A program made the position numbers and the translations under genes. From Roseateles sp. (GTDB lineage: Bacteria > Pseudomonadota > Gammaproteobacteria > Burkholderiales > Burkholderiaceae_C), in the NCBI GenBank assembly GCA_016790285.1, contig JAEUPJ010000041.1:124001-188000 (forward strand): a stretch of DNA of 64,000 nucleotides. Direction: 5' to 3'. Within the stretch, counting starts at the first letter, position 1. Every line of letters begins with the position of its first letter. The notes beneath the pieces were generated by a model, which saw only the letters and a list, made by a program, of their open reading frames with translations, had not been told where the DNA came from and did no database searches. Below are positions 7,045 through 24,610 of the stretch, in pieces.

Positions 7045-7114
7045 GGGCGAAGCGTGCCGAGCGGACCGGTTTGGGGAAGTCCCGGGTTGAAAAGCGGCCC
7101 ATCGCTGAAAGCAA

Positions 7115-9604: not shown

Positions 9605-9685
9605 CATCGAACGCAGCCTTGACGGGCGTCGCTGCCACGCGATGCCCGTGATGCTGCGCGATGTGGCCAGAGGGCGCGAGGCCGG

Positions 9686-10822
9686 TCACAACCTCGTGAA
9701 CTTGATCCAATTCACGTTCCACCCGCCGCGCGGCGCGAACACGCCCACGTTGTAGGTGCCCGCATTGATGTTCACCGTGTGCGAGATCGTCGTCCAGTTC
9801 TGCCAGCCACCGGTGGCCGGCACGCCGAGCTGGCCGAGCTGGATCGTGCCGGCGTTCAGGTCCAGCGACAGCGTGCCGCCACTGGGGCTGGCCACGCGGT
9901 ACTCCACGCGGTAGTTGCCGCTGGTGGGGAAGTTGATGCTGTTGTAGGCCATCCAGTCGTTGGTATCGATCCAGCCGACATTCAGGCCCCCTTCCGAGCA
10001 GGCCTCGGTCTGCACGCCGGCCTGGGCACTGAAGGCCTCGGCTTCGATCTGGCGGGCCCACACGGGAGCGTAGACGCGCACGTAGTCCACGTGCATCTTG
10101 GCCGGCAGCGCGGCGGTGTTGACGTTGAAGCCCGGCCAGTTGCCACCGATGGCGAAGTTCAGCAGCAGGAAGAAGTCCTTCTGGAACTCGTCGGTGCCGT
10201 TCACGCCATTGGCGATGTTGACCTCGTGGTACTTGTTGCCGTCCACATACCAGCGGATGGCGTTGGTGTCCCACTCGACCGCGTACACATGCCAGTCGGT
10301 CACCGTGGTGGCGGTGTTGCCGCCGTACTGGGCGTACTGGTTGTTGTTGTCCTTCCAATGGATGGTGCCGTAGACGCGGTTCTCGTCGTTGACGTGCTCC
10401 ATCACGTCGATCTCGCCGGAGGCCGGCCAGCCGACCTGCGGCAGGTTGGCCCCCAGCATCCAGAACGCGGGCCACGCGCCCAGGAAGGACGGCAGCTTCA
10501 TGCGGGCCTCGATGCGGCCGAACTTGAAGGTCTTCAGGCCCTGCGTCTTCATGCGGGCCGACGTGTAGGCCATGCCGCCGAAGTTCTCGCGCCGGGCCGT
10601 GATGACGAGCGCGCCGTTCTCGATCGTGGCGTTCTCGCGCCGGTAGTACTGCAGTTCGTTGTTGCCCCAGCCGCCGGCGCCGGTCTCGAAGACCCAGTTC
10701 GGGCCGATGCTGCCGTTGAACTCGTCGCTCCAGACGAGCTGCCACTGGGCATGGGCGAGGCCAGTGGCGGCCATCAGGAGGCCCGCGAGGGCGGGCCGGA
10801 TCAGGGAAAGCAGTCGTTTCAT
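9686..10822 (-). CDS. Secreted GH16 beta-1,3-glucanase (laminarinase-type) with CBM6-like domain
   Basis: This 378-residue secreted glucanase has a signal peptide (1-25, ending AHA) and a GH16 domain (about 27-250). The active site is GEIDVMEH, giving nucleophile E137, D139 and acid/base E142. The ExDxxE spacing with an extra residue is that of beta-1,3-glucanases rather than lichenases. A C-terminal CBM6-like beta-sandwich (about 255-378, with IEAEAFSAQAGV at its start) should bind beta-glucan. The start has a GGAGA ribosome site 7 bases upstream, and the longer in-frame start at 10900 would run through the operator. Two overlapping LacI-type sites lie 52-77 bases upstream, the same distance as at the TonB receptor. 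It probably releases oligosaccharides for that receptor. Confidence 0.93.
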   Translation of the reverse strand: MKRLLSLIRPALAGLLMAATGLAHAQWQLVWSDEFNGSIGPNWVFETGAGGWGNNELQYYRRENATIENGALVITARRENFGGMAYTSARMKTQGLKTFKFGRIEARMKLPSFLGAWPAFWMLGANLPQVGWPASGEIDVMEHVNDENRVYGTIHWKDNNNQYAQYGGNTATTVTDWHVYAVEWDTNAIRWYVDGNKYHEVNIANGVNGTDEFQKDFFLLLNFAIGGNWPGFNVNTAALPAKMHVDYVRVYAPVWARQIEAEAFSAQAGVQTEACSEGGLNVGWIDTNDWMAYNSINFPTSGNYRVEYRVASPSGGTLSLDLNAGTIQLGQLGVPATGGWQNWTTISHTVNINAGTYNVGVFAPRGGWNVNWIKFTRL

Positions 10823-10873
10823 GGGTTTGTCTCCAACAGGGGGTGGTGCTGCCTGCCGCCTGTGTCGGCGGCT

Positions 10874-10899
10874 TGAAAGCGCTTGCGAAAGCGCTTTCA
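10874..10899. promoter_or_regulatory. Double LacI-family operator, GH16-CBM6 gene
   Basis: Two overlapping copies, TGAAAGCGCTTGCG (10874-10887) and CGAAAGCGCTTTCA (10886-10899), lie 12 bases apart centre to centre. They start 52 bases upstream of the GH16 ATG, matching the spacing at the TonB receptor. Confidence 0.82.
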
Positions 10900-10972
10900 A
10901 GTGTGTCCGCAGAGAACCCGGGTGGGCAACCCGGGTCTGTGCCCGAACGCAGGGACGGGGGAACCCTGGGGC

Positions 10973-11004
10973 GGCGCGCGGCCACCGGGCGGTCGCCGCG
11001 CGCC
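10973..11004. terminator. GC-rich hairpin after the GH18 gene
   Basis: A perfect 10-bp stem (GGCGCGCGGC and GCCGCGCGCC) with a 12-base loop lies directly downstream of the GH18 stop at 11016. There is no T-run, so it may be a weak or Rho-assisted terminator or an mRNA-end stabiliser. Confidence 0.5.
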
Positions 11005-11015
11005 GGGTGGCCGGC

Positions 11016-12629
11016 TCAGGGCAGCGCGTTGAGCGCGTTGCGCACGCTGCGCGAGAACGCCAGGCCGTCCTTCTTGTCCCAGTTGATGGACCAGGTCATC
11101 ACGCCGCGCAGCGTGGGGTAGGGCGTTGCCGGCTTGATGGCGCCGCATTGGGTCAGGCGGGTCAGGCAGTTCAGCGCGGCCGTGATGGTGGCCACGCTCG
11201 CCTGCCCGGTGTTGGCCGAGGACGGCCCGGACGGCAGCCCGAACGCCACCTGGTCGGGCCGCAAGCCGCGGAAGACATAGGGCCCGCTGCCGTTGTTGGT
11301 CGTGAAGCCCTCGATGAGCATGCGGCTGGCGGCCACGAGCATGTCGGCGCTGCCTTCGGCCAGCCCCGCGGTCGAGTAGGGCGTGTAGACGGCGCCATTG
11401 TTGTAGTACTGCACGTGCAGCACGCTGAGCTCGTCGCGCAGGCCGTCGATCAGGGGCAGGTAGGCGCCCCAGATGCCCCCGTAGGCGACGTAGCCGCCCT
11501 GCACATAAGGGTGCTCCGGCGCCATCGACAGGTAGAAGCCGCTGCCCAGGCGGGCCTTGAGCTGCTTCACCGCGGTGACGAGGTTGCCCACCACCGGCGC
11601 GCCTGCGGTGACGCCTGCGCCGCTCTCGAGGTCGATGTCGATGCCGTCGAAGCCGTACTTGCGCAGGATGGCTTCCACGCTGTTCACAAAGTTGGCGACC
11701 TGCGTGGCGTTGGTCAGCGTGACCGTGCCGTTCTGCCCGCCGAAGGACAGCACCACTTTCTTGCCCTTGGCGCGCGCCGCGGCGATGTCGGCGATGAAGC
11801 GCGCCTCGCCACCGGAGCCGCCGTCGAGGTTGAAGGTGATGTTGCCGTTGCCGCCGTCGTCGGCGAAGGCCACGACGATGACGTCGTAGTCCGCCGGCAC
11901 CTCGCTGATCGGGAAGGTCGGCCCGGACGGGTTGGTGAAGTTGTGCCAGTAGCCGATGAGCTGGTGCTTGCCGGGCGACGGTGACGGGGCTGGCGACGGT
12001 GAAGGAGAGGGTGACGGCGAAGGCGAGGGGCTGGGCGACGGCGTCGGGGCCGGGGTGGGCGCAGGCGTGGGGGCTGGCGTCGGGGCGGGTGACGGTGCGC
12101 CGCCGCAGGCGCCTTGCGATGTCCACGGCTGCCCGCTGCCGGCGGGGCCGCTGCTGGTGGCGGGGTCGTTGCCCTGCGTCCACCAGTTGGCCTTGTAGTT
12201 GGTGCTGGCCTTGCTGGCGATCTGGCCGCCGGTGTAGGCGGTGCCGCTGGACCAGGCTGGCGCGCAGTTGCCGCTGGGGGCCGGGGCGGGCGTCGGGGCG
12301 GGCGTGGGCGCCGGGGTCGGCGTCGGCGTGGGTGCCGGGGTGGGTGCCGGGGTGGGTGCTGGCGTCGGTGCCGGCGCAGGCCCGGAGGCGGCGCCGATGT
12401 CGGTCCACAGCGACGCGTTGGTGGGGTTCCAGCCGGTGCTGGCGTAGTCGGTCTGGTTGACCAGCGCGCGGTAGAGCCGGCCGTTGAAGTTCACGACCGT
12501 GCCGGCCGTGTAGTAGGTGTCGGGCTGCCAGGCCGGGTAGCTCTGGGCCAGGGCAGGTTGCGACAGCAGCAGGGCGCCGGCGAGCAGCCAGGGGCTGGCC
12601 GCGCGCGGCAGGGGTGGGCGCGAGATCAT
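11016..12629 (-). CDS. Secreted GH18 chitinase with two chitin-binding modules
   Basis: This 537-residue secreted enzyme has a signal peptide (1-29) and a CBM5/12-like chitin-binding module (about 30-80, rich in Trp/Tyr). A Pro/Ala/Thr linker (83-118), a second CBM5/12-like module (120-175), a second Pro/Ser/Thr linker (179-219) and a GH18 domain (about 221-537) follow. The catalytic signature is DGIDIDLE with acid E335; the SxGG motif is SFGG (about 295-298). GH18 enzymes cut chitin with substrate-assisted retention. It lies 85 bases behind a second chitinase whose binding modules are nearly identical in DNA. A GGAGA-type site precedes the ATG. No GAAAGCGCTTTC palindrome lies close to this gene, so it may follow another regulator. 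Confidence 0.93.
12391..12475. repeat. 85-bp segment identical to 14216-14300
   Basis: This segment codes for part of the first chitin-binding module of the downstream chitinase and is base-for-base identical to the matching segment of the upstream chitinase, including third codon positions. This points to recent duplication or gene conversion. Confidence 0.9.
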
Positions 12630-12647
12630 GGGCGTCTCCAGGACGAT

Positions 12648-12678
12648 GGAAAAGGCCGCCGCACCCGGGGTGCGGCGG
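12648..12678 (-). terminator. Terminator-like hairpin between the two chitinase genes
   Basis: On the minus strand an 11-bp stem (CCGCCGCACCC with GGGTGCGGCGG) with a one-base loop is followed by CCTTTTCC. It lies 38 bases upstream of the second chitinase start and 37 bases past the first chitinase stop. It may be the terminator of the first gene or an attenuator of the second. Confidence 0.65.
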
Positions 12679-12685
12679 CGGGCGG

Positions 12686-12704
12686 GGCCTGAGCGGCTCA
12701 GGCC
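12686..12704. terminator. Perfect 9-bp hairpin after the first chitinase
   Basis: GGCCTGAGC and GCTCAGGCC pair perfectly around a single base, 11 bases past the stop at 12715. Together with the next hairpin it forms a tandem pair. There is no T-run of its own. Confidence 0.5.
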
Positions 12705-12714
12705 GTGCGTGGCA

Positions 12715-14457
12715 TCACTTCCACGGCGCGTTCTGCAGCGCCGGGTCGTCCACGAGGTTCAACAGGCCGGCGGCCTTTTTGCCGATGCTGCCGGGCGAGG
12801 CCAGCGGCGCGCTGCCGCAGCTGCCGGAGGCCGTCTTGAGGGCCTGCCACAGCATGGCGCCGTCACGCGGGTTGCGGTTGGCCAGCGTGCTGGTCGTCAC
12901 CGCGTTCAGGTAGCGTTCCACCGAGTAGGGCTGGTTGATGTTCGCGCCGTAGCTGTTCTGCAGGATGACCGAACCCGTGCACTGCGCGTCGGCGTTGTTC
13001 ACCACCAGCTGCCCGCCGGCCCAGCCTTCGGGCGCGGTCTCGAAACCGATGGACACGATGGTGCTGCTCGGGAAGAGCTGGCGGTACTGCTTCCAGGCGG
13101 TCACGCCGTCGTAGTGCTCGAAGCGGGCGTCGTAGCTCATGATGTTCACGAGGTCGAAGGCCGACTTCAGCGCCGGGTAGCTGTTGACGAGCTGGCGCTC
13201 CAGGCCGGCCTTGCCACCCCAGTAGCTCACGCCCACGCCCGCGCATTGCGCGTCGTTGGCGGTGGCACCGGTGCAGTCCGCGCCGGTGGACCAGGCGGCC
13301 ACGGTCAGGATGCGCCCGCCGCCGGCCAGGTCCACCGCCTTGCGCATGGCCTTCACGGCGCCGGCGTAGCCGTCCAGGCCTTCGATCTCGAAGTCCACGT
13401 CCAGGCCGTCAAAGCCCACGTCTTTCATGATGTTGGCCAGCGCCGTGATGGTCGGCCCGCTGCCGGCGTGGCCTTCGGCGGCCAGCGTGCCCCAGCTGTT
13501 GTAGGTGGCGCCGCCCACGGCCAGGATGACCTTGATGTTGCGGGCGTGCAGCACGTCGATGGCCGCCTTGATGTCCGAGGGCCGGCCGTTGAAGTTGATG
13601 CCGGTGCCCGACCAGTTGTTGGCCGCCATGCCGCCCCAGCTGAAGTTGGGTTGCGCGAACGCCGCCACCACGTGGGTGTAGTTGGCCGGGATGCGCGCGA
13701 AGTTGCTGGCCTGGAAGACCTGGTTCATGGTCTTGCCGGTGGCATCGAACCAGTTGTCGCTCCAGCTCGGGTAGTAGACCGTGTAGGCGCGGCCGTTCTG
13801 GTTGGCCGACTTGGCGGCCGGGTCGCTCAGGCCCGGGGCGGGTGCGGGTGACGGGGCCGGGGAGGGCGACGGGGACGGGGACGGGCTGGGGGAAGGCGAC
13901 GGGGACGGAGACGGGGACGGAGACGGGGAAGGCGACGGCCCCGTGGTGCAGGCGCCTTGCGACGTCCACGGCTGGCCGCTGCCCACCGGGCCGTTGTTGG
14001 TGGCGGGGTCGTTGCCCTGCGTCCACCAGTTGGCCTTGTAGTTGGTGGTGCCCTTGCTGGCGATGGTGCCGCCGCTGTAGGCCGTGGCGCTGGACCAGAC
14101 CGGCGCGCAGGTGCCGCTGGGGGCGGGTGATGGAGAGGGGGACGGCGTCGGCGCCGGGGTGGGCGCGGGGGTCGGAGCCGGCGTGGGGGCGGGCGAAGGC
14201 GCCGGGCCCGAGGCCGCGCCGATGTCGGTCCACAGCGACGCGTTGGTGGGGTTCCAGCCGGTGCTGGCGTAGTCGGTCTGGTTGACCAGCGCGCGGTAGA
14301 CGCGGCCCTGGTAGGTCACGACGGTGCCGGCCGTGTAGTAGACGTCGGGCGCCCACGTCGGGTAGGTCTGGGCGCCGGCGCTGAGGGCGAAGGCGGCGGC
14401 GGAGATGGCGGCGAGGCGACGCAATTGGTGCATCGGGATGCGGGTGGGCTGCTTCAT
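12715..14457 (-). CDS. Secreted GH18 chitinase with two chitin-binding modules
   Basis: This 580-residue secreted enzyme has a signal peptide (1-29, ending AGA) and a CBM5/12-like module (about 31-82). A Pro/Ala/Thr/Ser linker (83-115), a second CBM5/12-like module (117-170), a long Ser-Pro linker (173-209) and a GH18 domain (about 224-580) follow. The catalytic signature is DGLDVDFE with E357; the SxGG motif appears as AVGG (about 313-316). The GH18 domain differs clearly from that of the neighbour, while the binding modules are nearly identical, so the modules were copied and the catalytic domains come from different subfamilies. The start has an AGGA ribosome site; longer in-frame ATGs at 14478 and 14526 lack a signal-peptide-like beginning. 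The two enzymes probably attack chitin in complementary ways. Confidence 0.93.
   Translation of the reverse strand: MKQPTRIPMHQLRRLAAISAAAFALSAGAQTYPTWAPDVYYTAGTVVTYQGRVYRALVNQTDYASTGWNPTNASLWTDIGAASGPAPSPAPTPAPTPAPTPAPTPSPSPSPAPSGTCAPVWSSATAYSGGTIASKGTTNYKANWWTQGNDPATNNGPVGSGQPWTSQGACTTGPSPSPSPSPSPSPSPSPSPSPSPSPSPAPSPAPAPGLSDPAAKSANQNGRAYTVYYPSWSDNWFDATGKTMNQVFQASNFARIPANYTHVVAAFAQPNFSWGGMAANNWSGTGINFNGRPSDIKAAIDVLHARNIKVILAVGGATYNSWGTLAAEGHAGSGPTITALANIMKDVGFDGLDVDFEIEGLDGYAGAVKAMRKAVDLAGGGRILTVAAWSTGADCTGATANDAQCAGVGVSYWGGKAGLERQLVNSYPALKSAFDLVNIMSYDARFEHYDGVTAWKQYRQLFPSSTIVSIGFETAPEGWAGGQLVVNNADAQCTGSVILQNSYGANINQPYSVERYLNAVTTSTLANRNPRDGAMLWQALKTASGSCGSAPLASPGSIGKKAAGLLNLVDDPALQNAPWK
14216..14300. 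repeat. 85-bp segment identical to 12391-12475
   Basis: Partner copy, in the first chitin-binding module of the upstream chitinase. A further run of about 50 identical bases joins the second modules (near 12170 and 14010). Confidence 0.9.
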
Positions 14458-14486
14458 GAGTCGGTCCTGTGCGGGCATGGGCTCGT

Positions 14487-14524
14487 GGAAAAGGCTGCCG
14501 CTCCCCGGGTCTTCGAGGGGGAGC
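14487..14524 (-). terminator. Hairpin plus CCTTTTCC in the chitinase 5' leader
   Basis: On the minus strand GCTCCCC and GGGGAGC form a stem with an 11-base loop, followed after five bases by CCTTTTCC. It lies 43 bases before the chitinase ATG. No gene upstream on this strand needs a terminator here, so an attenuator or structured leader is more likely. Confidence 0.5.
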
Positions 14525-14565
14525 AACGGCCGCGGCGGCCCGCCTCTCCGTGCGGGCTCTAGGAG

Positions 14566-14633
14566 CTGGTTTCAACTGGTATGCATCCAGTTTGCGACTG
14601 CTACCACCTCTTGAATACCACTTTGCAAACCAG
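14566..14633. promoter_or_regulatory. Nested TGGT/ACCA dyads between chitinase and transporter operons
   Basis: The 337-base divergent gap 14458-14794 holds a nested dyad. CTGGTTT (14566) pairs with AAACCAG (14627), and TGGTAT (14577) pairs with ATACCA (14615). Inside lies the 19-base dyad AACTGG-N7-CCAGTT (14574-14592). The half-site recalls the GntR/DasR site ACTGGTCTAGACCAGT, with one extra spacer base. It may be the control site of the chitinase genes. The rest of the gap shows the leader hairpin and the LacI site. Confidence 0.5.
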
Positions 14634-14773
14634 CCGCCGCCGCGTCACGGGGAGAAACCCGGGGTTATGGTGTCAAAACGTAGCGGCATGGCCTCGATGG
14701 GCGTCACCGAGCCTTCGCGCCCGATGGGCCTAGGGTTTGTGCTGCTGGGGCGCCGGACGGCTTCACGCACAAT

Positions 14774-14791
14774 CTTGAAAGCGCTTTCAAG
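14774..14791. promoter_or_regulatory. LacI-family operator over the start of the transporter operon
   Basis: CTTGAAAGCGCTTTCAAG is a perfect 18-base palindrome ending three bases before the ATG of the binding-protein gene. It covers the place of the ribosome site, so the gene has only a weak Shine-Dalgarno sequence. A repressor here would act as a roadblock just after the promoter. Confidence 0.85.
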
Positions 14792-14794
14792 ACC

Positions 14795-16063
14795 ATGCCA
14801 GACTCCTTCACCTTCCCCCGCCGTCACCTGCTCGCCGCCGCCTTCGGCAGCGCCGCGGGCCTGGCGCATGGCAAGACGGAGCAGCCGCTGACCGTGGCCG
14901 CCTTCCCGCTGGTGGACGTCATCGCCAAGGACCTGCTCAAGGGCTGGTCCGCACGCCACCCGGAGGTGCGCACCCAGGTCATCAGCCGCCAGTACGACGA
15001 CCACCACACCGCCATGACCACGGCGCTGTCCACGTCCGGGCACCTGCCCGACGTCATCGCGCTGGAGACGAGCTACCTGGGCCGCTTCTCGCTGGGCACG
15101 GGCCTGGAGGACCTGTCCGCGCCCGCGTTCGGTGCCGAGCAGTTTCGCGACCGCTTCGTGCCGTTTGCCATCGACACCGCCCGCAACCGCGAGGGCCGCA
15201 TCGTCGCCATGCCCACCGACATCGGGCCGGGGTCGCTCTTCTACCGCCATGACCTGCTCGCGCAGGCGGGCCTGCAGGAGCGCGACCTGACGGCCTCGTG
15301 GGAGAGCTACGTGGAGGCCGGCGCCCAGCTCAAGGCGCGCACCGGGGCCTACCTCATCGGCGACGTGCGGCTGCTCAAGGATGTCATCGTGCGCGGCGGC
15401 ACGCCCGCGGGCGAAGGGCAGTTCTTCGACAACCAGCAGCGCCCGCAGATCACCTCGCCGCGTTTCGTGCGGGCCTTCGAGCTGGCGCGCAAGGTGCGCA
15501 AGCTGGGCCTGGATGCGCGCGTGGAGGTGTGGTTCAACGACTGGGCCGAGATGCTCAAGCGCGGGCGCCTGGCCACCGAGATCTCGGGCGGCTGGATGGC
15601 CGGCCAGATGGCCAACTGGGTCGCACCCGGCACGGCGGGCAAGTGGCGCGTGGCGCAGCTGCCCGAGAACACCTTCTGCTCCTACGGCGGCACCTACTAC
15701 GCCATCCCGCGGCGCTCCGCGCCCGAGAAGAAGCAGCTCGCCTGGCAGCTCATCCAGGAGCTCACGCTCGACCGCCAGCGCCAGCTCGACGCCTTCCGCG
15801 CGCAGGACGCCTTCCCCGCGCTGCTCGCCGCGCAGGAAGACCCCTTCTTCGAGCAGCCCGTGCCCTTCCTGGGCGGGCAGCAGGCGCGCGTGCTGTGGCG
15901 CGAGGCCGCGCGGCGCATCCCCGTCGTGAAGATGCACCGCCAGCACAAGTTCGCCGACGAGGTCATCAACGCCGAGCTCGACAACGTGCTCGAGTACGGC
16001 AAGCCCATCCCCCAGGCGCTGGAAGACGCCCAGGCCCTGCTGCTGCACCGCGCCAACCGATGA
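14795..16063 (+). CDS. Sugar ABC transporter substrate-binding protein (family 1)
   Basis: This 422-residue periplasmic binding protein has a Tat-like signal (FPRRHLLAAAFGSAAG, about 8-23) ending near LAHG. The body shows family-1 sugar-binding features such as LPDVIALE and the late SGGWMAGQMANW segment. It delivers oligosaccharides to the two permeases that follow; its TGA overlaps the first permease ATG. The perfect LacI-type palindrome directly before the start places this operon under the local regulator. No ATPase is in the operon. The likely cargo is a beta-glucan oligosaccharide, judged from the GH1 and GH16 genes downstream. The in-frame ATG is the only reasonable start, although its ribosome site is weak. 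Confidence 0.92.
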   Translation: MPDSFTFPRRHLLAAAFGSAAGLAHGKTEQPLTVAAFPLVDVIAKDLLKGWSARHPEVRTQVISRQYDDHHTAMTTALSTSGHLPDVIALETSYLGRFSLGTGLEDLSAPAFGAEQFRDRFVPFAIDTARNREGRIVAMPTDIGPGSLFYRHDLLAQAGLQERDLTASWESYVEAGAQLKARTGAYLIGDVRLLKDVIVRGGTPAGEGQFFDNQQRPQITSPRFVRAFELARKVRKLGLDARVEVWFNDWAEMLKRGRLATEISGGWMAGQMANWVAPGTAGKWRVAQLPENTFCSYGGTYYAIPRRSAPEKKQLAWQLIQELTLDRQRQLDAFRAQDAFPALLAAQEDPFFEQPVPFLGGQQARVLWREAARRIPVVKMHRQHKFADEVINAELDNVLEYGKPIPQALEDAQALLLHRANR

Positions 16064-16959
16064 GCCGCTTTCGCATCCCCGCCAGCTGGGCGCCCTACCT
16101 CCTGGTCAGCCCTTTCCTGATCCTGTTCGCGGTCTTCGGGCTGTTCCCGCTGCTGTTCTCGCTGTGGCTGGCCTTCCAGTCCTGGGAGCCCACGAGCGGC
16201 CTGGGCGCGATGACGTTCGTGGGCCTGGACAACTTCGTCTTCGCACTCACCGACGGCTGGTTCTGGAAATCGTTGCGCAACACGCTGTGGCTGGCCATCG
16301 CCTCGGGCGTGCCGCAGCACCTGGTGGCGCTGCCGCTGGCCGTCTTCCTGCATCAGGCCTTCGGGCGCTGGCGCGGCGTGGTCTCGGGCGCCTACTTCCT
16401 GCCCTACATCACGTCCACGGTCGCCATCGCGATGCTGTTCGGCTCGCTGTTCTCCAACGACTACGGCCTCGTGAACCAGGCGCTGCACGGCCTCTTCGGC
16501 ATGGAGCACATCAACTGGCTGCGCTCGCCCGAGGCCATCAAGCCGGCGGTCGCCATCGTGGTGTTCTGGCGCTACGTGGGCTTCAACCTGGTGCTGTACC
16601 TCGCGGCGCTGCAGACCATCCCGCAAGACCTCTACCAGGCCGCCAAGCTCGACGGCGCCGGCCCCTGGCAGCAGTTCCTGCGCATCACGCTGCCGGGCCT
16701 CAAGCCCATGATCCTCTTCGGCGTGACGCTCTCCGTCATCGGCGGGCTGCAGCTGTTCGAGGAGCCCTTCATCCTGACCAACGGCAAGGGCGGCGCCGAC
16801 CAGCAGGCCATGACCGTGGGCATCTACCTGTACCGCCTGGCTTTCGACTTCAGCGATTTCGGCGGCGCCAGCGCCCTGGCCTGGATCATGTTCGGCGTCA
16901 TCGGGCTGATGACCTGGCTTACGAACAAGGCGTTCGCGGAAAGGCGCGCCGCCACATGA
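16060..16959 (+). CDS. Sugar ABC transporter permease (MalF/UgpA-like)
   Basis: This 299-residue inner-membrane permease has six hydrophobic segments, the first at about 11-35. The EAA loop that contacts the ATPase is visible as DLYQAAKLDGAGPWQQFLRI (about 188-207). The ATG overlaps the TGA of the binding-protein gene, and its own stop overlaps the next permease, so the three are tightly coupled. It forms a heterodimer with the next permease. The energising ATPase is missing here; the closest candidate is the MsmK/UgpC-type ATPase encoded at 27060-28121. Confidence 0.95.
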   Translation: MSRFRIPASWAPYLLVSPFLILFAVFGLFPLLFSLWLAFQSWEPTSGLGAMTFVGLDNFVFALTDGWFWKSLRNTLWLAIASGVPQHLVALPLAVFLHQAFGRWRGVVSGAYFLPYITSTVAIAMLFGSLFSNDYGLVNQALHGLFGMEHINWLRSPEAIKPAVAIVVFWRYVGFNLVLYLAALQTIPQDLYQAAKLDGAGPWQQFLRITLPGLKPMILFGVTLSVIGGLQLFEEPFILTNGKGGADQQAMTVGIYLYRLAFDFSDFGGASALAWIMFGVIGLMTWLTNKAFAERRAAT

Positions 16960-17774
16960 AGACCACCCCGAAGCTGCTCGCCTACGCCCTCGTGGGCATC
17001 GGCGCGCTCATCATGCTGGCGCCGTTCTACTTCATGTTCGTGTTCGCCACGCAATCGCGCACCGACATCTTCAACGTGCCGCCGCCGCTGTTCTTCAGCA
17101 GCGAGCTGCTCAACAACATCGCCGTGCTCACCACGCGCCTGCCGTTCTGGAAGAACGTCGGCTGGAGCCTGTACGTGGGCCTGATGTCCACGGCGCTCAC
17201 GCTGCTGTTCTGCTCGATGGCGGGGTATGCCTTCGCGATGCTGGAGTTCCGCTTCAAGAAGGCGCTCTTCGCTCTCGTCATGGCCACGATGATGGTGCCG
17301 GCCTTCATGAACATGATCCCGATGTTCATGGTGATGGACACCCTGGGCTGGATCGACACGCACCGCGCGCTCTACCTGCCGGGCGCGGCCAGCGCCTTCG
17401 GCATCTTCCTGATGCGCCAGTTCGCCGCCAGCACCGTGCCCAAGGAGCTGCTCAACGCGGCGCGCATCGACGGCGCGAGCGAGCTGGGCATCTACTGGCG
17501 CATCGCACTGCCGCTGATGAAGCCCGCCCTCGGCACGCTCGGCCTCATCACCTTCATCAGTTCATGGAACAACTTCATGAACCCGCTGATCGTCATGCGC
17601 ACGGCCGAGAACTACACGCTGCCGCTGGCCCTGCGCAGCCTCTTCAGCACCACCAGCACGGAATGGGGGGCCTTGATGGCGGGCTCGGCCATTGCCACGC
17701 TGCCGCTCATCGTCCTCTTCGTCATCTCGTCGCGCCAACTCATCGCGGGCCTGACCGCCGGCGCCGTCAAATAA
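16956..17774 (+). CDS. Sugar ABC transporter permease (MalG/UgpE-like)
   Basis: This 272-residue permease is the second half of the transporter. Six hydrophobic segments are visible, beginning at about 8-30. The EAA loop reads ELLNAARIDGASELGIYWRI (about 165-184). It starts with an ATG overlapping the TGA of the first permease and ends 9 bases before the GH1 gene, so both uptake and cytoplasmic hydrolysis are transcribed together. The family imports mono- and oligosaccharides. The specificity cannot be read from the permease itself. Confidence 0.95.
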   Translation: MKTTPKLLAYALVGIGALIMLAPFYFMFVFATQSRTDIFNVPPPLFFSSELLNNIAVLTTRLPFWKNVGWSLYVGLMSTALTLLFCSMAGYAFAMLEFRFKKALFALVMATMMVPAFMNMIPMFMVMDTLGWIDTHRALYLPGAASAFGIFLMRQFAASTVPKELLNAARIDGASELGIYWRIALPLMKPALGTLGLITFISSWNNFMNPLIVMRTAENYTLPLALRSLFSTTSTEWGALMAGSAIATLPLIVLFVISSRQLIAGLTAGAVK

Positions 17775-17783
17775 GAACAGTCC

Positions 17784-19115
17784 ATGAATCCTCTGCACCG
17801 CCAGTTCCCGCCCGACTTCGTCTGGGGCGTCGCCACCAGCAGCTTCCAGATCGAGGGCGCGGCCCATGAGGACGGCAAGGGCGAGTCCATCTGGGACCGC
17901 TTCTGCCAGCAGCCCGGCGCCATCGCCGACGCGAGCAACGGCGACGTCGCCTGCGACCACTTCCACCGCCTGGAGAGCGACCTCGACCTGATCGCATCGC
18001 TCGGCGTCAACGCCTACCGCTTCTCCATCGCCTGGCCGCGCGTGCAGCCACTGGGCCATGGCGAGTTCAACCCCAAGGGCCTGGACTTCTACGAGCGGCT
18101 CGTGGATGGCCTGAAGCGCCGCGGCATCCAGGCCTGGGCCACGCTGAACCACTGGGACCTGCCGCAAGGCCTGCAGGACCGCGGCGGCTGGAACGACCGC
18201 GACACGGTGCACCGCTTCGTCGACTACGCCCGCCACGTGAACGCCCGCCTGGGCAGCCGCCTCACCGGCATCACGACGCACAACGAGCCCTGGGTGATTG
18301 CCGTGCTCGGTCACGACCAGGGCAACTTCGCCCCCGGCATCAAGAGCCGCAAGATCGCCACGCAGGTGTCGCACCACCTGCTGCTCAGCCACGGCCTGGC
18401 GCTGCAGGCGCTGCGGGCCGATGGCGCCAGGAGCGCGCTCGGCATCGTGCTCAACCTCGCCTCCACGGTGCCGGCCACCGCCATGCCGGCCGACATCGCC
18501 GCGGCCGACCTGGCCGACTCGCGCGGCCGCCGCTGGTACACCGACCCGCTCTTCAAGGGCCACTACCCGGCCGACGTGATCGCCGAGCTCGGCGCCGACG
18601 CCCCGGTGGTGCACGACGGCGACATGGCCGCCATCGCCCAGCCGATGGACTACCTCGGCGTCAACTACTACACGCGCACGGTCGTCTCGGCCAGCGGTGA
18701 AGAGTGGAACGCCAAGGGCCGCGGCCTGCCGGTGTCCGACATGGACTGGGAGATCTACCCCCAGGGCCTGACCGACCTGCTGTGCCTGCTGCACCGCGAC
18801 TACCCCGGCCTGCCACCGGTCTACATCACCGAGAACGGCGGCGCCTTCAAGGACGACACGCTGGCCCAGGGCCGCGTGCAGGACGACGACCGCATCGCCT
18901 ACCTGCAGGAGCACATCGCCGCCGTCGCGCGCGCCCTGCAGCAAGGCGTGCCCATGGCGGGCTACATGGTCTGGAGCCTGATGGACAACTTCGAGTGGGC
19001 CAGCGGCTACCTCAAGCGCTTCGGCATCGTGCACGTCGACTACGAGACCCAGGCGCGCACGCCCAAGGCCAGCGCCGAGTGGTACCGCGCCTTCCTCCGC
19101 GACTGGCGCGGTTGA
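17784..19115 (+). CDS. GH1 beta-glucosidase
   Basis: This 443-residue enzyme covers the whole GH1 barrel. The acid/base sits in THNEPW (E168) and the nucleophile in YITENGG (E350); the start FPPDFVWGVATSSFQIEG is the classical GH1 N-terminus. There is no signal peptide, so it works in the cytoplasm on imported disaccharides and short oligosaccharides and releases glucose. It follows the transporter permease by 9 bases and precedes a GH16 lipoprotein by 46 bases. Given the two GH16 glucanases in the locus, laminaribiose-type substrates are more likely than cellobiose, which is inference. Confidence 0.95.
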   Translation: MNPLHRQFPPDFVWGVATSSFQIEGAAHEDGKGESIWDRFCQQPGAIADASNGDVACDHFHRLESDLDLIASLGVNAYRFSIAWPRVQPLGHGEFNPKGLDFYERLVDGLKRRGIQAWATLNHWDLPQGLQDRGGWNDRDTVHRFVDYARHVNARLGSRLTGITTHNEPWVIAVLGHDQGNFAPGIKSRKIATQVSHHLLLSHGLALQALRADGARSALGIVLNLASTVPATAMPADIAAADLADSRGRRWYTDPLFKGHYPADVIAELGADAPVVHDGDMAAIAQPMDYLGVNYYTRTVVSASGEEWNAKGRGLPVSDMDWEIYPQGLTDLLCLLHRDYPGLPPVYITENGGAFKDDTLAQGRVQDDDRIAYLQEHIAAVARALQQGVPMAGYMVWSLMDNFEWASGYLKRFGIVHVDYETQARTPKASAEWYRAFLRDWRG

Positions 19116-19161
19116 GCGCTCGCACCTCCCCACCCCATTCCCACAAGAACACGGAGACTCC

Positions 19162-20082
19162 ATGCCCCTGATTGCCCCGCGCCCCTGGCGCCACGCCCTG
19201 CCTGCCATCGCCGCCGTGCTGACCGCCTGTGGCGGCGGTGGGGGTTCGGCCACGGCCGCCCCTGCTGCGCCCGCACCCGCACCCGCTCCGGCTCCCGCGC
19301 CTGCACCGGCACCGGCACCGTCCAACAGCTGGACGCTCGTCTGGAGCGACGAGTTCGACGCCGCCGCCGGCACCGTGCCCAAGGTGGCCAACTGGAACTA
19401 CGACCTCGGCAATGCCGAATCCAACGGCTGGGGCAACCACGAGTTCCAGTACTACACGTCCAACGCGCGCAACGCCCAGCATGACGGCGCCGGCATGCTC
19501 GTCATCACCGCCGAGAAGGCCACCAACCCAGGCCCGTGCTGGAACGGCAAGCCCTGCGACTACACCTCGGCCCGCATCCACAGCAACGGCAAGGTCAGCT
19601 TCACCTACGGCAAGGTCGAGGCGCGCATGAAGCTGCCCGCGGGCGCCGGCATCTGGCCCGCCTTCTGGGCCCTGGGCACCGACCTCGCCACGGCCGGCTG
19701 GCCCAAGTCGGGCGAGATCGACATCATGGAGTTCGTCGGCAAGACGCCCAACACCGTCTACGGCACGCTGCACGGCCCCGGCTACTCGGGCGCACAGGGC
19801 ATCAACAAGCCCTACGAGATGGGGGCGCCGGTGTCGGCCGACTTCCACACCTACACCATCATCAAGCGGCCCAACGAGATCATCTGGCAGGTCGACGGCA
19901 AGGAATACCACCGCCTCTCGCCCGCGAGCCTGCCCGCGGGCGGCACCTGGGTGTTCGAGAAGCCCTTCTTCGTCATCCTCAACCTGGCGGTCGGCGGCGA
20001 CTGGCCCGGCGCGCCCGATGCGGCCACCGTGTTCCCGGCGCAGATGAAGGTCGACTGGGTGCGGGTCTACAAGGAAGACTGA
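19162..20082 (+). CDS. GH16 beta-1,3-glucanase lipoprotein
   Basis: This 306-residue protein has a lipoprotein signal with lipobox LTAC (C23), a glycine cluster and an Ala-Pro repeat linker (about 33-53) before a single GH16 domain (about 56-306). The active site is GEIDIMEF (E185, D187, E190), the beta-bulge type of beta-1,3-glucanases. No carbohydrate-binding module is attached, unlike the other GH16 in the locus. It is probably anchored to the outer membrane, where it would shorten glucan chains for the TonB receptor, or it may face the periplasm. It is the last gene of the operon, followed by a terminator at 20128-20152. A short GGAGACTCC ribosome region precedes the ATG. Confidence 0.93.
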   Translation: MPLIAPRPWRHALPAIAAVLTACGGGGGSATAAPAAPAPAPAPAPAPAPAPAPSNSWTLVWSDEFDAAAGTVPKVANWNYDLGNAESNGWGNHEFQYYTSNARNAQHDGAGMLVITAEKATNPGPCWNGKPCDYTSARIHSNGKVSFTYGKVEARMKLPAGAGIWPAFWALGTDLATAGWPKSGEIDIMEFVGKTPNTVYGTLHGPGYSGAQGINKPYEMGAPVSADFHTYTIIKRPNEIIWQVDGKEYHRLSPASLPAGGTWVFEKPFFVILNLAVGGDWPGAPDAATVFPAQMKVDWVRVYKED

Positions 20083-20127: not shown

Positions 20128-20152
20128 AAAGGGCCGCTTCGAGCGGCCCTTG
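20128..20152. terminator. Bidirectional intrinsic terminator
   Basis: A strong stem AGGGCCGCT/AGCGGCCCT with a 3-base loop lies between the convergent GH16 and PEP-CTERM genes. The minus strand has the better T-rich tail (CTTTGTCTTTT). Confidence 0.88.
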
Positions 20153-20183: not shown

Positions 20184-20768
20184 TCAGGCCGCCTTCTGGC
20201 GGCGGCGCCACAGGCCCAGGCCGGCGAGGCCGGCGGCCAGCATCAGGTAGCTCTCGGGCTCCGGCACGGCGGCCGCGACCTGCACGCTGCTGTCCACCGT
20301 CTGCACGGTGATGGTGGCCAGGTTGCTGTCCAGGAAGGTCGTGTCCGCTGCGACGAAGGTCAGCGGGCTGGTGCCGGTGCCGATGGCGCTCAGGTGCACC
20401 GTCAGCAGCGTGCCGTTGCCGCTCACGCCCGGGATGGCGCCGATCAGGCTGTTGTAGGCAAACGAAATGGTGCCGGCCGTGTTGTCCACGGTGCCGGTGT
20501 CGCCGGTCGTGGTGCCGCCCGTGGCCAGGAAGCTGCCGGTGTCGATGCTGGTGACCTGCAGCAGGCTCGCGTCGAACGTGAGGGAGAAGTTGTAGGCGTA
20601 CAGATCCGCCACGCCCGCGATCAGCACGCCGATGTCGAGGGTGCTGCCTTGCTGCGCCGGGTTGGGCGTGGCCACGAAGGTCACCTGCGGGGTGGCGGCC
20701 AGCGCCGGTGCGGCCCAGGCGCTGAGCGCCAGCAGGGCGGCCGACAGGCGGAACTTGGTCGAGGGCAT
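20184..20768 (-). CDS. PEP-CTERM protein with cohesin-like domain
   Basis: This 194-residue secreted protein has a signal peptide (about 1-24, ending ALAA) and one beta-rich domain (about 25-160). Its pattern fits cohesin domains of the scaffoldin type: VTFVATPNPAQQGSTLDIGV, then LYAYNFSLTFDASLLQV, then a glycine-rich turn. The C-terminus is a classic PEP-CTERM signal: VPEPES, a hydrophobic stretch and an RRRQ tail, read by an exosortase that is not in this window. The start has an AAGGAG site 8 bases upstream. A protease with a dockerin-like tail is encoded divergently 0.8 kb away, so a cohesin-dockerin contact is possible. The cohesin assignment is from pattern only. Confidence 0.75.
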   Translation of the reverse strand: MPSTKFRLSAALLALSAWAAPALAATPQVTFVATPNPAQQGSTLDIGVLIAGVADLYAYNFSLTFDASLLQVTSIDTGSFLATGGTTTGDTGTVDNTAGTISFAYNSLIGAIPGVSGNGTLLTVHLSAIGTGTSPLTFVAADTTFLDSNLATITVQTVDSSVQVAAAVPEPESYLMLAAGLAGLGLWRRRQKAA

Positions 20769-20912
20769 GACGGAACTCCTTGGATGCGATGGGCGTTGAG
20801 CCACTCCCGAGAGCGGTCGACGCGAAATCTTAGGCGCGCAGACTAGCGCGGCTGGCGACGCCCGCGCACGAGGGTTTGCCGTGCCGTCGTCCGAAAACCT
20901 CAGCGGCCTCCC

Positions 20913-21398
20913 TCATCTCGGGGGGTGGTCGACCCCAGCCTTGCGGGCGGTCTGCGTGACGGCGTCGATCACTTCCGCCAACGCTGGCGGCCCGGCCTCG
21001 CCGCGGCGAAAGACCTGCTGGCTGGTGCCGTCGGCGTGCTCGATGCGCAGGAGCTGCCACGGGCCGTCCTGCGTCTGCGGGTCGACGAACTCCTCGCCCA
21101 TCCGGCCCAGGCCGCGCGCCTGCCAGAGCTCGGCCACGGCGGCGAAATCTTCAGGGCTGACACGGCCCTGGCGTGTTTCGTCGGTGGTGCCGAGCCGCGC
21201 CTTGCCGAGCTGCTGCCACTGGATGACCCCGTCGGCCATCAGCACGATGCGCGTGCCCGTGGGGCAGCCGTTGCAGTCGGTCTCCAGGGAGATCTGCCGG
21301 GGCAGTGCCGGCAGGCCCCCGGCACCGGCGGCGCCGGCCAGAGCAGCCTCCAGACCGAGGGCCAGCGCCAGTGCGCGCCGTGGCTTGGTGTTGAACAT
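20913..21398 (-). CDS. DUF6438-like secreted protein
   Basis: This 161-residue protein begins with a basic, then hydrophobic signal-like stretch (MFNTKPRRALALALGLEAAL). A single domain follows, with a cysteine pair in DCNGCPTG and an IVLMADGVIQWQQ strand, which resembles DUF6438. That family has no assigned function. The ATG chosen gives the signal sequence; earlier in-frame starts reach 21545 but lack one. It reads in the same direction as the cohesin-like gene, 144 bases upstream of it, and diverges from the metalloprotease gene across a 161-base gap, so the three could share control. Confidence 0.7.
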   Translation of the reverse strand: MFNTKPRRALALALGLEAALAGAAGAGGLPALPRQISLETDCNGCPTGTRIVLMADGVIQWQQLGKARLGTTDETRQGRVSPEDFAAVAELWQARGLGRMGEEFVDPQTQDGPWQLLRIEHADGTSQQVFRRGEAGPPALAEVIDAVTQTARKAGVDHPPR

Positions 21399-21559
21399 CG
21401 CGTTATCCCGGACTTTGGGCCGTGTCGGCTCGCATACATTTTCCGCGTCCGTCCGTGAGCTTGTGCAGAAATTGCGACCCAAGTGGCTGTTTTCTCGCTC
21501 ACGGCACCAACTGTCGTGTCGGGCGGCCGGACCCTGCCCAGGCACCCCAAGGGATGTCG

Positions 21560-24550
21560 ATGAATACCTTCTCTGTTCGCCCGTCGAGGGTTGCGGCCGC
21601 TGTGGCCCGTGTCGTGATGCTGTCTTCGGGCCTGGCCCTGGCCGCTGTGCCGGCCGTCGCCGCGCCCGCGGCCACGGCTGCTGCCGTGACGCAGAGTTCG
21701 GCCAGCTTCTGGCAGGACGTGAGTTCGCGCCTGAGCGCGCAGTCGGCCAGCAACGCGCGCGCCGTGCTGCAGCCCACCAAGTTCCGCGCGGCGATGCTGG
21801 ACAAGGCTGGCATCACCGCCTTCGCCGCGACCGCGCCTCTGGAGCGCAGCGCGGGTGCTGCGGTGTCGCCGCTGGTCATCTCCCTGCCGCACCCCGACGG
21901 TGGCTTCCAGCGCTTCGCCCTGGTGGAGTCGCCCATCATGGAAGAGGGCCTGGCCGCCAAGTTCCCCGAGATCAAGACCTACGCCGGCAAGGGGCTGGAC
22001 GACCCGCGCGCCACGCTGCGCATGGACATCACGCCGCTGGGCCTGCACGCTTCCGTGCGCTCGCCCAATGGCGCCTGGTATGTGGACCCCTACTACCACC
22101 TGGACGACAGCGTCTACGCCAGCTACTTCGCGCGCAACCTGCCCAACCCGCGCACGGCGCTCGTGGAGCCCACCGAGTCGATCGCCGCGCAGCTCTCGCT
22201 GTCGCGCAGCTTCTATCACGCGGCTGACACCGTCGAGGTGCGCGGCGCCGGCTTCGGCGCGGGTGCCACCGTCACCGTGACCGTGCGCGCCGAGGGCGGC
22301 TCGGGCACCGGCCAGACGCTGCAGGTCACCGCCGACGCCGAGGGCGTCATCAGTGCCACCTTCCCCGCCGACCCCGGCCGCGGCCAGGGTGGCTATGAAG
22401 TCACGGCCCAGGCGGGTGAAACCGCCGCCACCACGGCCTACCACGTCGTGGACGACGCGCTCGCGCCGGCCGCCGCCGTGGCGCCGCAGCTGCGCGTGTA
22501 CCGTCTGGCCCTGCTGACGGATCCGTCCTACGCCACCTACTTCGGCGGCACCGCGGCCAACGTGCTGGCCGCCAAGGTCACGCTGATCAACCGCGTCACG
22601 CAGGTCTACGAGGACGAGACCTCGATCCGCCTGCTGCTGATCAACGATTCCGACAAGCTCAACCTCGACACCGCCGCCAAGATGACGGGCACCAACGGCC
22701 CCTGCGGCGGTGCGGCCTGCTTCACCACCGCCCAGGCGGCCAGCTGCGGCGGCGGCACGCTGACGCGCAACCGCCAGGTCATCGGCCTGCTGGTGGGCGC
22801 CAGCGCCTTCGACATCGGCCACATCGGCCTGGGCCTGAACGGCGGCGGCATCGCCTCGCTGGGCGTGGTGGGTGGCGGCAGCAAGGCGCAGGGCTGCACG
22901 GGCATCCCGACGCCGGTGGGCGACTTCTACGCGGTCGACTACGTCGCCCACGAGATGGGTCACCAGTTCAGCGGCAACCACACCTTCAACGGCACCATCT
23001 CCAACTGCTCCACAGGCAACCGCAATGCCGGCACGTCGGTGGAGCCGGGTTCGGGCTCGTCGATCATGGCGTATGCCGGCATCTGCGGCACCGACAACCT
23101 GCAGCCGCACAGCGACCCGTACTGGTCGCAGCGCAGCTTCGACGAGATCGTGGCCTACACCTCGACGGCCGAGTCCAACATCGCCGAAGTGCAGATGGGC
23201 GTGCTGACGGGCTACACCGCCAACGGTCTGCAGTTCCAGTTCAAGTACAACGGCACGCTGAGCGCGGCCATCACGCGTGGCACCAACTTCACGGCGAGCG
23301 GCATCAAGGGCGCCATCGAGGGGCTGCCCGGCTGGCCTGCGGCTGCGACCGTCACCGCCAGCTCGATCACTGACAACGCGTTCACGCTGACCTTCGCAGC
23401 GGCCGCCGGCGATGTCCCCAACCTGGAGCTTGTGCCTGTGAGCGCGGGCGTCACCGGCTACGTCGGCGAAATCGCCAAGGGTGGCCTCACCACCCGCGGT
23501 GGCTTCCAGAAGCTGGCCACCGGCAACAACGCACCCAGCGTGACCGCACCGGCCACCTACACCATCCCGGTGCGCACGCCGTTCGCGCTGACCGGTGCCG
23601 CGACCGACCCCGATGGCGACACCGTCACCTACCTGTGGGAGCAGAACGACCGTGGCGCCACCGGCACCTCGGCAGGCACCGGCCTCATCACGCAGCCCAA
23701 GCTCAACGGCCCGCTGTTCCGCCAGTTCGGCACCCGCGCCGTCGTCAGCAACACCGACACGCTGCAATACGGCTCGCCGGGTGAGAACGCGGTGACGACC
23801 AACCCGACGCGCGTCTTCCCCGACATGGCGCAGATCCTGGCCAACAACACCAATGCCGAGACCGGTAACTGCTCGCTGGTCAACGCCAGCGCCCCGACGG
23901 CTTCCGAGATCGACTGCTTCTCCGAGTTCCTGCCGACGGCCGCCTATGTGGGTGCGTCCGGTGTGAACGCGAGCCCGGCGTCGCTGAACTTCCGCCTCAC
24001 GGCCCGTGACGGCCGCGGCGGTGTCAACAGCGCCAACACGCAGCTGATCCTGGCGGCCAACGCCGGCCCGTTCCTCGTGACTTCGCCCAACACGGCCGTC
24101 ACGCTGGATTCCGGCAAGCAGACCGTGACCTGGGCCGTGGCCAACACCAACGTCGCCCCGGTCAACACGGCCAACGTGAAGATCTCCCTGTCCACCGACA
24201 GCGGCCTGACCTTCCCCACCGTGCTCGCCGCGAGCGTGCCCAACACCGGCAGCGCGCTCGTCACGCTGCCGGCCGTGGCCACGAGCAAGGCCCGCGTCAA
24301 GGTGGAGGCGCTCGACAACGTCTTCTTCGATGTCTCCAACGCCGACTTCACCATCAAGGTGGCCGGCGACCTCAACGGTGACAACGTGGCCAACTGCGCT
24401 GACGTCGCCATCGTGCGGGCCTCGATGGGCAAGCGCACCGGCCAGCCGGGCTTCGACGCCCGCGCCGACGTCGACAAGAACGGTGTAGTCGACGTGCGCG
24501 ACCTCGCCTACGTGACCCAGCGCCTGGCGGCCGGCACCAGCTGCAGCTGA
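21560..24550 (+). CDS. Secreted metzincin (reprolysin-like) zinc protease with dockerin-like C-terminus
   Basis: This 996-residue secreted protease has a signal peptide (about 1-32), a propeptide-like region (about 40-190), a beta-sandwich insert (about 200-280) and the catalytic domain. The metzincin motif HEMGHQFSGNH gives zinc ligands H464, H468 and H474 with E465. Ig-like domains follow (one with APATYTIPVRTPFALTG). The end (about 936-996) looks like a dockerin type I module with two calcium-loop repeats, GDLNGDNVANCADV and DVDKNGVVDVRDL. The second of two close ATGs is favoured because AAGGG lies six bases before it. It probably digests protein or glycoprotein outside the cell. A cohesin-like PEP-CTERM protein is encoded nearby. 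Confidence 0.92.
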   Translation: MNTFSVRPSRVAAAVARVVMLSSGLALAAVPAVAAPAATAAAVTQSSASFWQDVSSRLSAQSASNARAVLQPTKFRAAMLDKAGITAFAATAPLERSAGAAVSPLVISLPHPDGGFQRFALVESPIMEEGLAAKFPEIKTYAGKGLDDPRATLRMDITPLGLHASVRSPNGAWYVDPYYHLDDSVYASYFARNLPNPRTALVEPTESIAAQLSLSRSFYHAADTVEVRGAGFGAGATVTVTVRAEGGSGTGQTLQVTADAEGVISATFPADPGRGQGGYEVTAQAGETAATTAYHVVDDALAPAAAVAPQLRVYRLALLTDPSYATYFGGTAANVLAAKVTLINRVTQVYEDETSIRLLLINDSDKLNLDTAAKMTGTNGPCGGAACFTTAQAASCGGGTLTRNRQVIGLLVGASAFDIGHIGLGLNGGGIASLGVVGGGSKAQGCTGIPTPVGDFYAVDYVAHEMGHQFSGNHTFNGTISNCSTGNRNAGTSVEPGSGSSIMAYAGICGTDNLQPHSDPYWSQRSFDEIVAYTSTAESNIAEVQMGVLTGYTANGLQFQFKYNGTLSAAITRGTNFTASGIKGAIEGLPGWPAAATVTASSITDNAFTLTFAAAAGDVPNLELVPVSAGVTGYVGEIAKGGLTTRGGFQKLATGNNAPSVTAPATYTIPVRTPFALTGAATDPDGDTVTYLWEQNDRGATGTSAGTGLITQPKLNGPLFRQFGTRAVVSNTDTLQYGSPGENAVTTNPTRVFPDMAQILANNTNAETGNCSLVNASAPTASEIDCFSEFLPTAAYVGASGVNASPASLNFRLTARDGRGGVNSANTQLILAANAGPFLVTSPNTAVTLDSGKQTVTWAVANTNVAPVNTANVKISLSTDSGLTFPTVLAASVPNTGSALVTLPAVATSKARVKVEALDNVFFDVSNADFTIKVAGDLNGDNVANCADVAIVRASMGKRTGQPGFDARADVDKNGVVDVRDLAYVTQRLAAGTSCS

Positions 24551-24567
24551 CGCTCCTCCCCAGCTTG

Positions 24568-24610
24568 AAGGCCGGCTTCTCCTTCGGGAGGGGCCGGCCT
24601 TTGCTTTGGC
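24568..24610 (+). terminator. Intrinsic terminator of the metalloprotease gene
   Basis: AAGGCCGGC and GCCGGCCTT pair around a 16-base loop, followed by TTGCTTTGG. It begins 18 bases past the stop. Confidence 0.85.

Follow-up and report, generated by a model that had tools for sequence, protein, structure and literature searches.

Known cohesin–dockerin and PEP-CTERM systems

Cohesin–dockerin pairs, their non-cellulosomal counterparts and the sorting of PEP-CTERM proteins by exosortases are already known. Here, we describe two neighbouring genes in a 64,000-nucleotide stretch of Roseateles sp. DNA (contig JAEUPJ010000041.1, positions 124,001 to 188,000; "the window" hereafter) that bring these parts together: one encodes a small cohesin protein with a PEP-CTERM sorting tail, the other a secreted M12B (reprolysin-like) metalloprotease that ends in a type I dockerin. 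As far as the literature was searched, this socket-and-enzyme gene pair is a new combination of known parts. We propose, with a probability of roughly three in four, that the cohesin protein is an exosortase-sorted, single-cohesin socket that holds the dockerin-tagged enzyme on the cell surface or within the exopolysaccharide.

The type I pairs of cellulosomes (2y3n, 1ohz, 2vn6) resemble the Roseateles pair in the Pfam families of both modules, in the (here predicted) cohesin fold and in the two-loop dockerin. Unlike them, the pair lies in a genome without a multi-cohesin scaffoldin, and the cargo families found here are mostly not plant-wall enzymes. Peer et al. reportedly surveyed cohesins outside cellulosomes in 2009. 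Structures of such cohesins from Archaeoglobus fulgidus (2xdh) and Clostridium perfringens (2jh2, 2vo8, 2w1n) are among the best fold matches listed for the window cohesin; what sets the present system apart from them is an exosortase tail, a recurrent gene pairing with dockerin proteins from many families and a Gram-negative host.

The GlyGly-CTERM tags of the rhombosortase system keep secreted proteases at the Gram-negative cell surface. There, the tag is on the enzyme itself, whereas in the arrangement proposed here a second protein carries it and would hold the enzyme non-covalently. PEP-CTERM proteins, as presented in the accessible portions of two papers (Haft 2006, PMC1569441; PepA of Aquincola, PMC9850573), share with the cohesin protein a signal peptide, a VPEP tail and exosortases; here, such a protein would act as receptor for another secreted protein. 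The terms cohesin and dockerin are absent from the accessible portion of PMC1569441. The literature search returned no description of PEP-CTERM combined with a cohesin or a dockerin (a prior mention in Peer et al. 2009 is possible), and a match for cohesin, dockerin and exosortase together concerns, in the excerpt available, anaerobic methanotrophic (ANME) archaea.

In the proposed mechanism, the cohesin protein would be exported and sorted by an exosortase via its PEP-CTERM tail, and its single cohesin would face outward, either on the cell surface or within the exopolysaccharide matrix. The protease would be secreted separately, and its calcium-loaded C-terminal dockerin would plug into the cohesin, leaving the protease with the producing cell; the benefit would be that the enzyme and its products are kept near the cell. 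We infer the physical binding, its calcium dependence, the anchoring site and the benefit. Export of both proteins, exosortase sorting and dockerin capture together are the simplest account of the facts. The support consists of the domain architecture, the predicted cohesin fold, gene linkage in two layouts, a nested joint absence of both modules, residue loss in four cohesin-less loci and a matching of types across unrelated enzymes.

The gene pair in Roseateles

The cohesin protein matches PF00963 with an E-value of 1.1e-13 (52.6-53.5 bits, curated cut-off 24.1) and PF07589 with 29.3 bits (cut-off 20.7), and a Pfam scan of it returned no other families. The expected features of a PEP-CTERM substrate are present: a signal peptide (by eye), the PEP motif, a hydrophobic stretch, a basic end and an exosortase in the genome. 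Its cohesin domain, modelled by AlphaFold2 from an alignment of 49 sequences (pLDDT 96.0), is predicted to adopt the cohesin jelly-roll fold; all 50 of the Foldseek matches listed are cohesin entries, including the non-cellulosomal structures from A. fulgidus and C. perfringens.

The protease is assigned to M12B by its catalytic domain together with an intact HExxHxxGxxH, which we take to be its zinc motif. Its dockerin matches PF00404 with an E-value of 3.2e-9 (33.9 bits, cut-off 22.9) at residues 981-1035 of a 1042-codon open reading frame (ORF). Both calcium loops are complete, with ligands at positions 1, 3, 5 and 12, the calcium-ligand positions of such loops; positions 10-11 are C-A and V-R, compared with S-T in Clostridium thermocellum. 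Cysteines occupy positions 111 and 160 in all 53 rows of an alignment of these tails (A4), one in calcium loop 1 and the other C-terminal, and likely form a disulphide that clasps the dockerin ends. A joint model of the preceding immunoglobulin (Ig)-like domain and the dockerin (pLDDT 93.2) has a type II X-dockerin as its top Foldseek match (E 6.9e-5), a weak one with a TM-score of only 0.32 over both domains and with many Ig-like matches mixed in. By sequence, the closest solved relative of the dockerin is 2y3n_B (E 9.4e-11), and the cohesin profile matches 2y3n chain A (E 2.1e-5); the partners thus match both chains of one solved complex.

An initial annotation, made from the letters of the window, had recognised a cohesin-like domain with an exosortase tail in one protein and two dockerin-like calcium loops at the end of the other. 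Both assignments hold, as the profile search that it had proposed as a check places each module well above the cut-off, and its coordinates are correct, with ATG start codons at 20768 (cohesin gene) and 21560 (protease gene, with a further ATG at 21554). It had also placed the pair within 4.4 kb; that linkage stands, while the annotation overlooked that the two genes are divergent and that a third gene, on the minus strand, lies in between. As a result of this arrangement, a common operon for protease and cohesin is ruled out in the window.

The assembly (5.9 Mb, 107 contigs, 95.11% complete) contains a single PF00963 match and a single PF00404 match, 3.7 kb apart, next to two exosortases and 65 PEP-CTERM matches. 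The module families are the same as in cellulosomes, which raises the idea of the cohesin protein as a scaffoldin gathering many enzymes. With only one cohesin in the protein and no Pfam match beyond that domain and the PEP-CTERM tail, this idea is hardly tenable, and because the assembly has one of each module, a canonical cellulosome (a multi-cohesin scaffoldin plus several dockerin enzymes) is ruled out for this genome. The reading of the initial annotation, in which the pair would tether the protease in a surface-display system different from the cellulosomes of Firmicutes, is supported.

Cohesin and dockerin among relatives of the protease

When genome contigs were searched with an alignment of the protease, 79 loci were kept, from the best 80 of 214 confirmed. 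Counts for these loci, for the family loci, for the stretches from the order and the class and for the pair distances below depend on profiles iterated from the window and are not independent of it; those for the assembly, the linkage in 299 genomes, the cargo scans, the class survey and the scan of 31 cohesins are based on Pfam models alone. A dockerin is present in 52 of the 79 proteases. A cohesin gene lies within 6 kb of 48 of these 52, and of none of the 27 proteases without dockerin, which come from Actinomycetota (22), Acidobacteriota (1) and Oxalobacteraceae (4). Fisher p values, uncorrected for relatedness, are 3e-17 for all loci and 2e-4 with the four Oxalobacteraceae controls alone. 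Contig ends truncate some stretches, among the cohesin-less ones L187 (at 0.3 kb upstream), L206 (at 1.4 kb upstream) and L192 (at 0.9 kb downstream).

The pair occurs in two layouts: one, in Sphaerotilaceae, is divergent around an in-between gene, and the other, mostly in Oxalobacteraceae, is tandem downstream. Because both layouts keep the pair, the linkage has survived rearrangement. In a protease tree built by a quick method without bootstrap and with some weak inner forks, the four Oxalobacteraceae proteases without dockerin group as a single clade (SH-aLRT 100), which is nested in a group of 20 rows (SH-aLRT 96); the remaining members of the latter have both dockerin and cohesin. Since a clade without either module is nested among proteases that bear both, dockerin and cohesin were most simply lost jointly, in one event.

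The four remaining dockerin proteases, all from Rubrivivax, have no cohesin in their stretches, and their dockerins retain both cysteines and most calcium ligands. Of the 49 A4 rows from loci with a neighbouring cohesin, 46 have K or R at position 123, 46 have R at 124 and 46 have R at 145; in the four Rubrivivax rows, a basic residue is kept at 123 in 0/4, at 124 in 0/4 and at 145 in 1/4. These four cases perhaps represent two or three events and not four.

It is conceivable that the modules do not bind and are neighbours through a matrix-related gene set, with the dockerin as a calcium-stabilised cap and the cohesin-like domain as an adhesin. The two invariant cysteines may indeed make a stable cap, unpaired dockerins and cohesins exist, and cohesin–dockerin binding at this locus is an inference. 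Such a reading sits poorly with a cohesin that accompanies the dockerin rather than the protease itself, with the nested clade that has neither module, with the loss of basic residues from the dockerins of the four cohesin-less loci and with the matching of types across enzyme clusters described below, and we consider it very improbable.

Linkage across the family, order and class

Among 299 genomes of the family, Pfam models match a cohesin in 35, a dockerin in 54 and both in 22. In 16 of these 22, cohesin and dockerin are at most 6 kb apart, against 0.10 expected under uniform placement, so co-location by chance is ruled out. Together with the protease loci and their one nested clade lacking both modules, this bears out the co-occurrence of the gene pair in relatives on which the initial annotation had made its idea depend.

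Around the family matches, 80 stretches were taken (including part of the cohesin sites in long frames), in which the iterated profiles find cohesin in 45 ORFs and dockerin in 55. Counting the window, 54 family loci have a dockerin match, and 34 of them have a cohesin gene in the same locus. A PEP-type tail is visible by eye in 33 of the 34 paired cohesins (one reading VPAP) and is lacking in L095. When 31 of the 34 were scanned, leaving out the near-copies L080 and L088 and the tail-less L095, PEP-CTERM was matched in 29 and the Pfam cohesin, at E<=0.01, in 23. Eleven cohesin ORFs have no dockerin in their family locus: seven with the cohesin C-terminal in frames of 766-1019 codons, one in a giant frame and three small ones, two of which have a PEP-CTERM tail. 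The long frames are in L104-L108, L145 (4295-6787) and L148. Those scanned (L105, L106 and L108) are secretins by Pfam, each clustered with small genes, and secretin-borne cohesins are a different use of the cohesin fold; the Roseateles assembly has six secretins.

A three-gene cluster recurs in L094 (6777-11099, minus strand), L144 (5962-10282, minus) and L095 (6624-10795, minus), encoding a dockerin protein of 566-582 amino acids (aa), a second protein of about 480-508 aa and a third of 322-325 aa. The third protein has a cohesin match (iterated profile) only in L095; its L094 counterpart has no cohesin match, and PEP-CTERM is matched by Pfam within its sequence, at residues 193-213.

Elsewhere in the order, cohesin and dockerin genes occur together in 6 of 12 stretches from other families (L230, L231, L235, L237, L239 and L241, with the L237 dockerin below the Pfam cut-off). 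L236, L238 and L240 have a cohesin and no dockerin match. In L232, a full-length match to a profile of whole cohesin proteins (A2) adjoins a dockerin gene, though the cohesin profile gave no match. This A2 profile matched in 141 of 330 order genomes, mostly through PEP-CTERM tails alone among the matches listed, and served only for choosing full-length matches. In L233 and L234, a PEP-CTERM cohesin gene is followed, after about 0.67 kb, by a very long frame that continues past the end of the stretch: the cohesin gene is at 5717-6421 (plus strand) and the giant frame at 7089-19001 (plus) in L233, and they are at 12612-13454 (minus) and 2-11944 (minus), respectively, in L234. Dockerins are found about 25 kb from these cohesins, in the interior of frames with 14,056 and 14,049 codons, which fits the giant frame and the dockerin-bearing frame of about 14,000 codons being the same gene. 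Four genomes of one genus in another family of the order (G336, G421, G492 and G521) have 2-8 dockerin matches each, many of them partial.

Across the class, cohesin is found by Pfam in 21 and dockerin in 37 of 331 genomes; six, counting that of the window, contain both, and in every one of them the two share a frame or are no more than about 4 kb apart. Stretches from families elsewhere in the class have, in 6 of 15 cases (L242, L243, L247, L249, L250 and L255), a small cohesin gene at most about 1 kb from a dockerin gene. As a clear PEP-CTERM tail was seen among these six only in L250 (Pfam PEP-CTERM does not match the L243 cohesin), the sorting tail characterises the pairs of Burkholderiales. 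L243 (3454-12000, minus) has one cohesin gene flanked by dockerin genes for proteins of 580 aa and 433 aa, the latter multicopper-oxidase-like; it is a case of one socket with several plugs. A further 613-aa protein in L243 has a tail like the dockerin ones, without a significant match.

Cargo variety and matching types

The initial annotation had seen the system as one protease pair. The pair itself stands, and the scope was too narrow: Burkholderiales pairs carry many enzyme types, and cohesin and dockerin genes are neighbours elsewhere in the class. We scanned 30 dockerin proteins from 30 loci with Pfam (28 with a cohesin in the locus; L094 and L100 without), and 25 of the dockerins are above the cut-off. 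Their cargo includes M12B proteases, C25 (gingipain-like) cysteine peptidases, GH10 enzymes, a PF04185 phospholipase C, metallo-beta-lactamase-fold (MBL) proteins, a metallophosphatase, an M20 peptidase, a glucose/sorbosone dehydrogenase (GSDH) and an IgGFc-binding-type protein, as well as several in which little besides the dockerin is recognised. Similar small cohesins adjoin dockerins on C25, GH10, phospholipase C, MBL, M20, GSDH and other proteins.

Judged by eye, there are about three types of dockerin. Type A (GKR..GQ and V/I-R-D) is found on M12B and GH10 enzymes and in L076, with variants on the M20 peptidase and one MBL protein; type B (NS-L-D loops, mostly ending in PGPSAWH) on C25 peptidases, with the same loops on GSDH; and type C (PRDAN.DGKIT) on propeller-like and IgGFc-type proteins, with the other MBL protein close to it. 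The two related MBL proteins carry types A and C, and each adjoins a cohesin nearest to that type (by eye). Distances tell a similar story. Among 84 non-redundant pairs, grouped at phmmer E 1e-5 into 16 partner clusters (four duplicate loci dropped, the tail-less L095 included), cohesin distance correlates with dockerin distance at r 0.77, and at 0.33 between different clusters (0/500 permutations each). Averaged per cluster, r is 0.54 (0/10,000 permutations), and for the 51 M12B pairs it is 0.31 after removal of the protease-body distance (0/2000 permutations).

The cohesin protein may also bind the enzyme without anchoring it, as a secretion partner, stabiliser or inhibitor (for instance shielding it until export), with a tail that only routes the complex outward before release. 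Most pairs have one socket gene per enzyme gene, as fits a dedicated chaperone, and PEP-CTERM proteins may lose their C-terminus by cleavage, its fate being left open in the accessible part of PMC9850573. In that same part, overexpression of a PEP-CTERM protein raised cell-bound exopolysaccharide in a relative, which speaks for retention. Moreover, since partners as unrelated as proteases, GH10 enzymes, phospholipase C and probably giant adhesins are paired with similarly built sockets, a generic anchor suits better than a dedicated inhibitor, and we regard the release reading as unlikely.

Beyond the single locus, we find it fairly probable that the anchoring pair is one instance of a general Gram-negative plug-and-socket platform, in which exosortase-sorted single-cohesin sockets stand beside their own dockerin cargo. 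At least three specificity types would be common to unrelated cargo, and cargo would be exchanged while socket and plug types stay matched, a cellulosome-like modular logic without scaffoldin that is fitted to an exopolysaccharide matrix. The cargo would comprise metalloproteases, gingipain-like C25 peptidases, GH10 enzymes, phospholipase C, MBL-fold proteins and beta-propellers, and probably giant adhesins. If so, a set of PEP-CTERM proteins, as well as non-cellulosomal cohesins and dockerins, would gain a concrete job; there would be a testable account of how Gram-negative biofilm and floc bacteria retain secreted enzymes; and the matched types would offer a new set of orthogonal protein connectors for bench use.

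Several observations weigh against the anchoring proposal. The Rubrivivax metagenome-assembled genomes L186, L192, L193 and L198 account for 4/52 dockerin proteases without cohesin in the stretch (with only 0.9 kb downstream in L192). In the family, 20/54 dockerin loci have no cohesin match (giant proteins and contig ends included), and among GH10 dockerins, L100 and L101 have none yet retain the KR and RD residues. Conversely, 2/35 small PEP-CTERM cohesins in family loci have no dockerin match in the locus. The many cohesins and dockerins found with iterated profiles bring in circularity: 4/30 dockerins fall below the Pfam cut-off (L084, L142, L146 and L149) and L110 has no match, and 8/31 scanned cohesins miss the Pfam cohesin at E<=0.01. 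As for matching, the nearest foreign cluster agrees for only 17/33 non-M12B pairs, and the agreement of distances could stem from modules inherited together as cassettes, which gives the same pattern as contact. Finally, the final location of PEP-CTERM proteins is unsettled.

Neighbouring genes and features of the window

The coordinates of the features are collected in Table 1. The protein encoded in between has relatives next to the protease in 18/79 loci, including all four with a dockerin and no cohesin, and none in any tandem-layout locus among the 79; it was therefore set aside as a part of the pair and may inhibit the protease or assist its maturation. Four terminator-like hairpins are found in the region, against a mean of 1.9 (sd 1.6) in shuffled sequence, which is a weak signal.

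Table 1. Positions of the cohesin and protease genes, their modules and adjacent features in the window
Feature	Position	Strand	Basis or remark
Terminator-like hairpin 3' of cohesin gene	20129..20151	-	weak signal
Small cohesin gene, 194 aa (signal peptide, single cohesin domain, PEP-CTERM tail)	20184..20768	-	ORF, Pfam
PEP-CTERM sorting tail (VPEP, hydrophobic stretch, RRR)	20199..20270	-	PF07589
Cohesin domain	20277..20663	-	PF00963, AlphaFold2 model, Foldseek
Signal peptide of cohesin protein, 24 residues ending ...APALA	20697..20768	-	read by eye from translation
In-between gene, small secreted-looking protein	20913..~21398	-	start codon chosen by eye; DUF6438 below cut-off
M12B (reprolysin-like) metalloprotease, secreted, C-terminal dockerin	21560..24550	+	ORF, Pfam
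Reprolysin_2 catalytic domain	22556..23113	+	Pfam, E 1.4e-30
HExxHxxGxxH motif, HEMGHQFSGNH	22949..22981	+	sequence read
Type I dockerin	24362..24526	+	PF00404
Dockerin calcium loop 1, DLNGDNVANCAD	24368..24403	+	sequence, tail alignment A4
Dockerin calcium loop 2, DVDKNGVVDVRD	24467..24502	+	sequence, tail alignment A4
Terminator-like hairpin 3' of protease gene	24566..24603	+	weak signal

The window holds a second PEP-CTERM gene at 60776-61381 (minus strand), with a CHRD domain (PF07452, E 2.5e-19). Upstream of the pair, at 9686-20082, lie apparent sugar ABC transporter genes together with GH1 and GH16 enzymes (the GH1 and one GH16 assignment being those tested), which are perhaps a beta-glucan utilisation locus.

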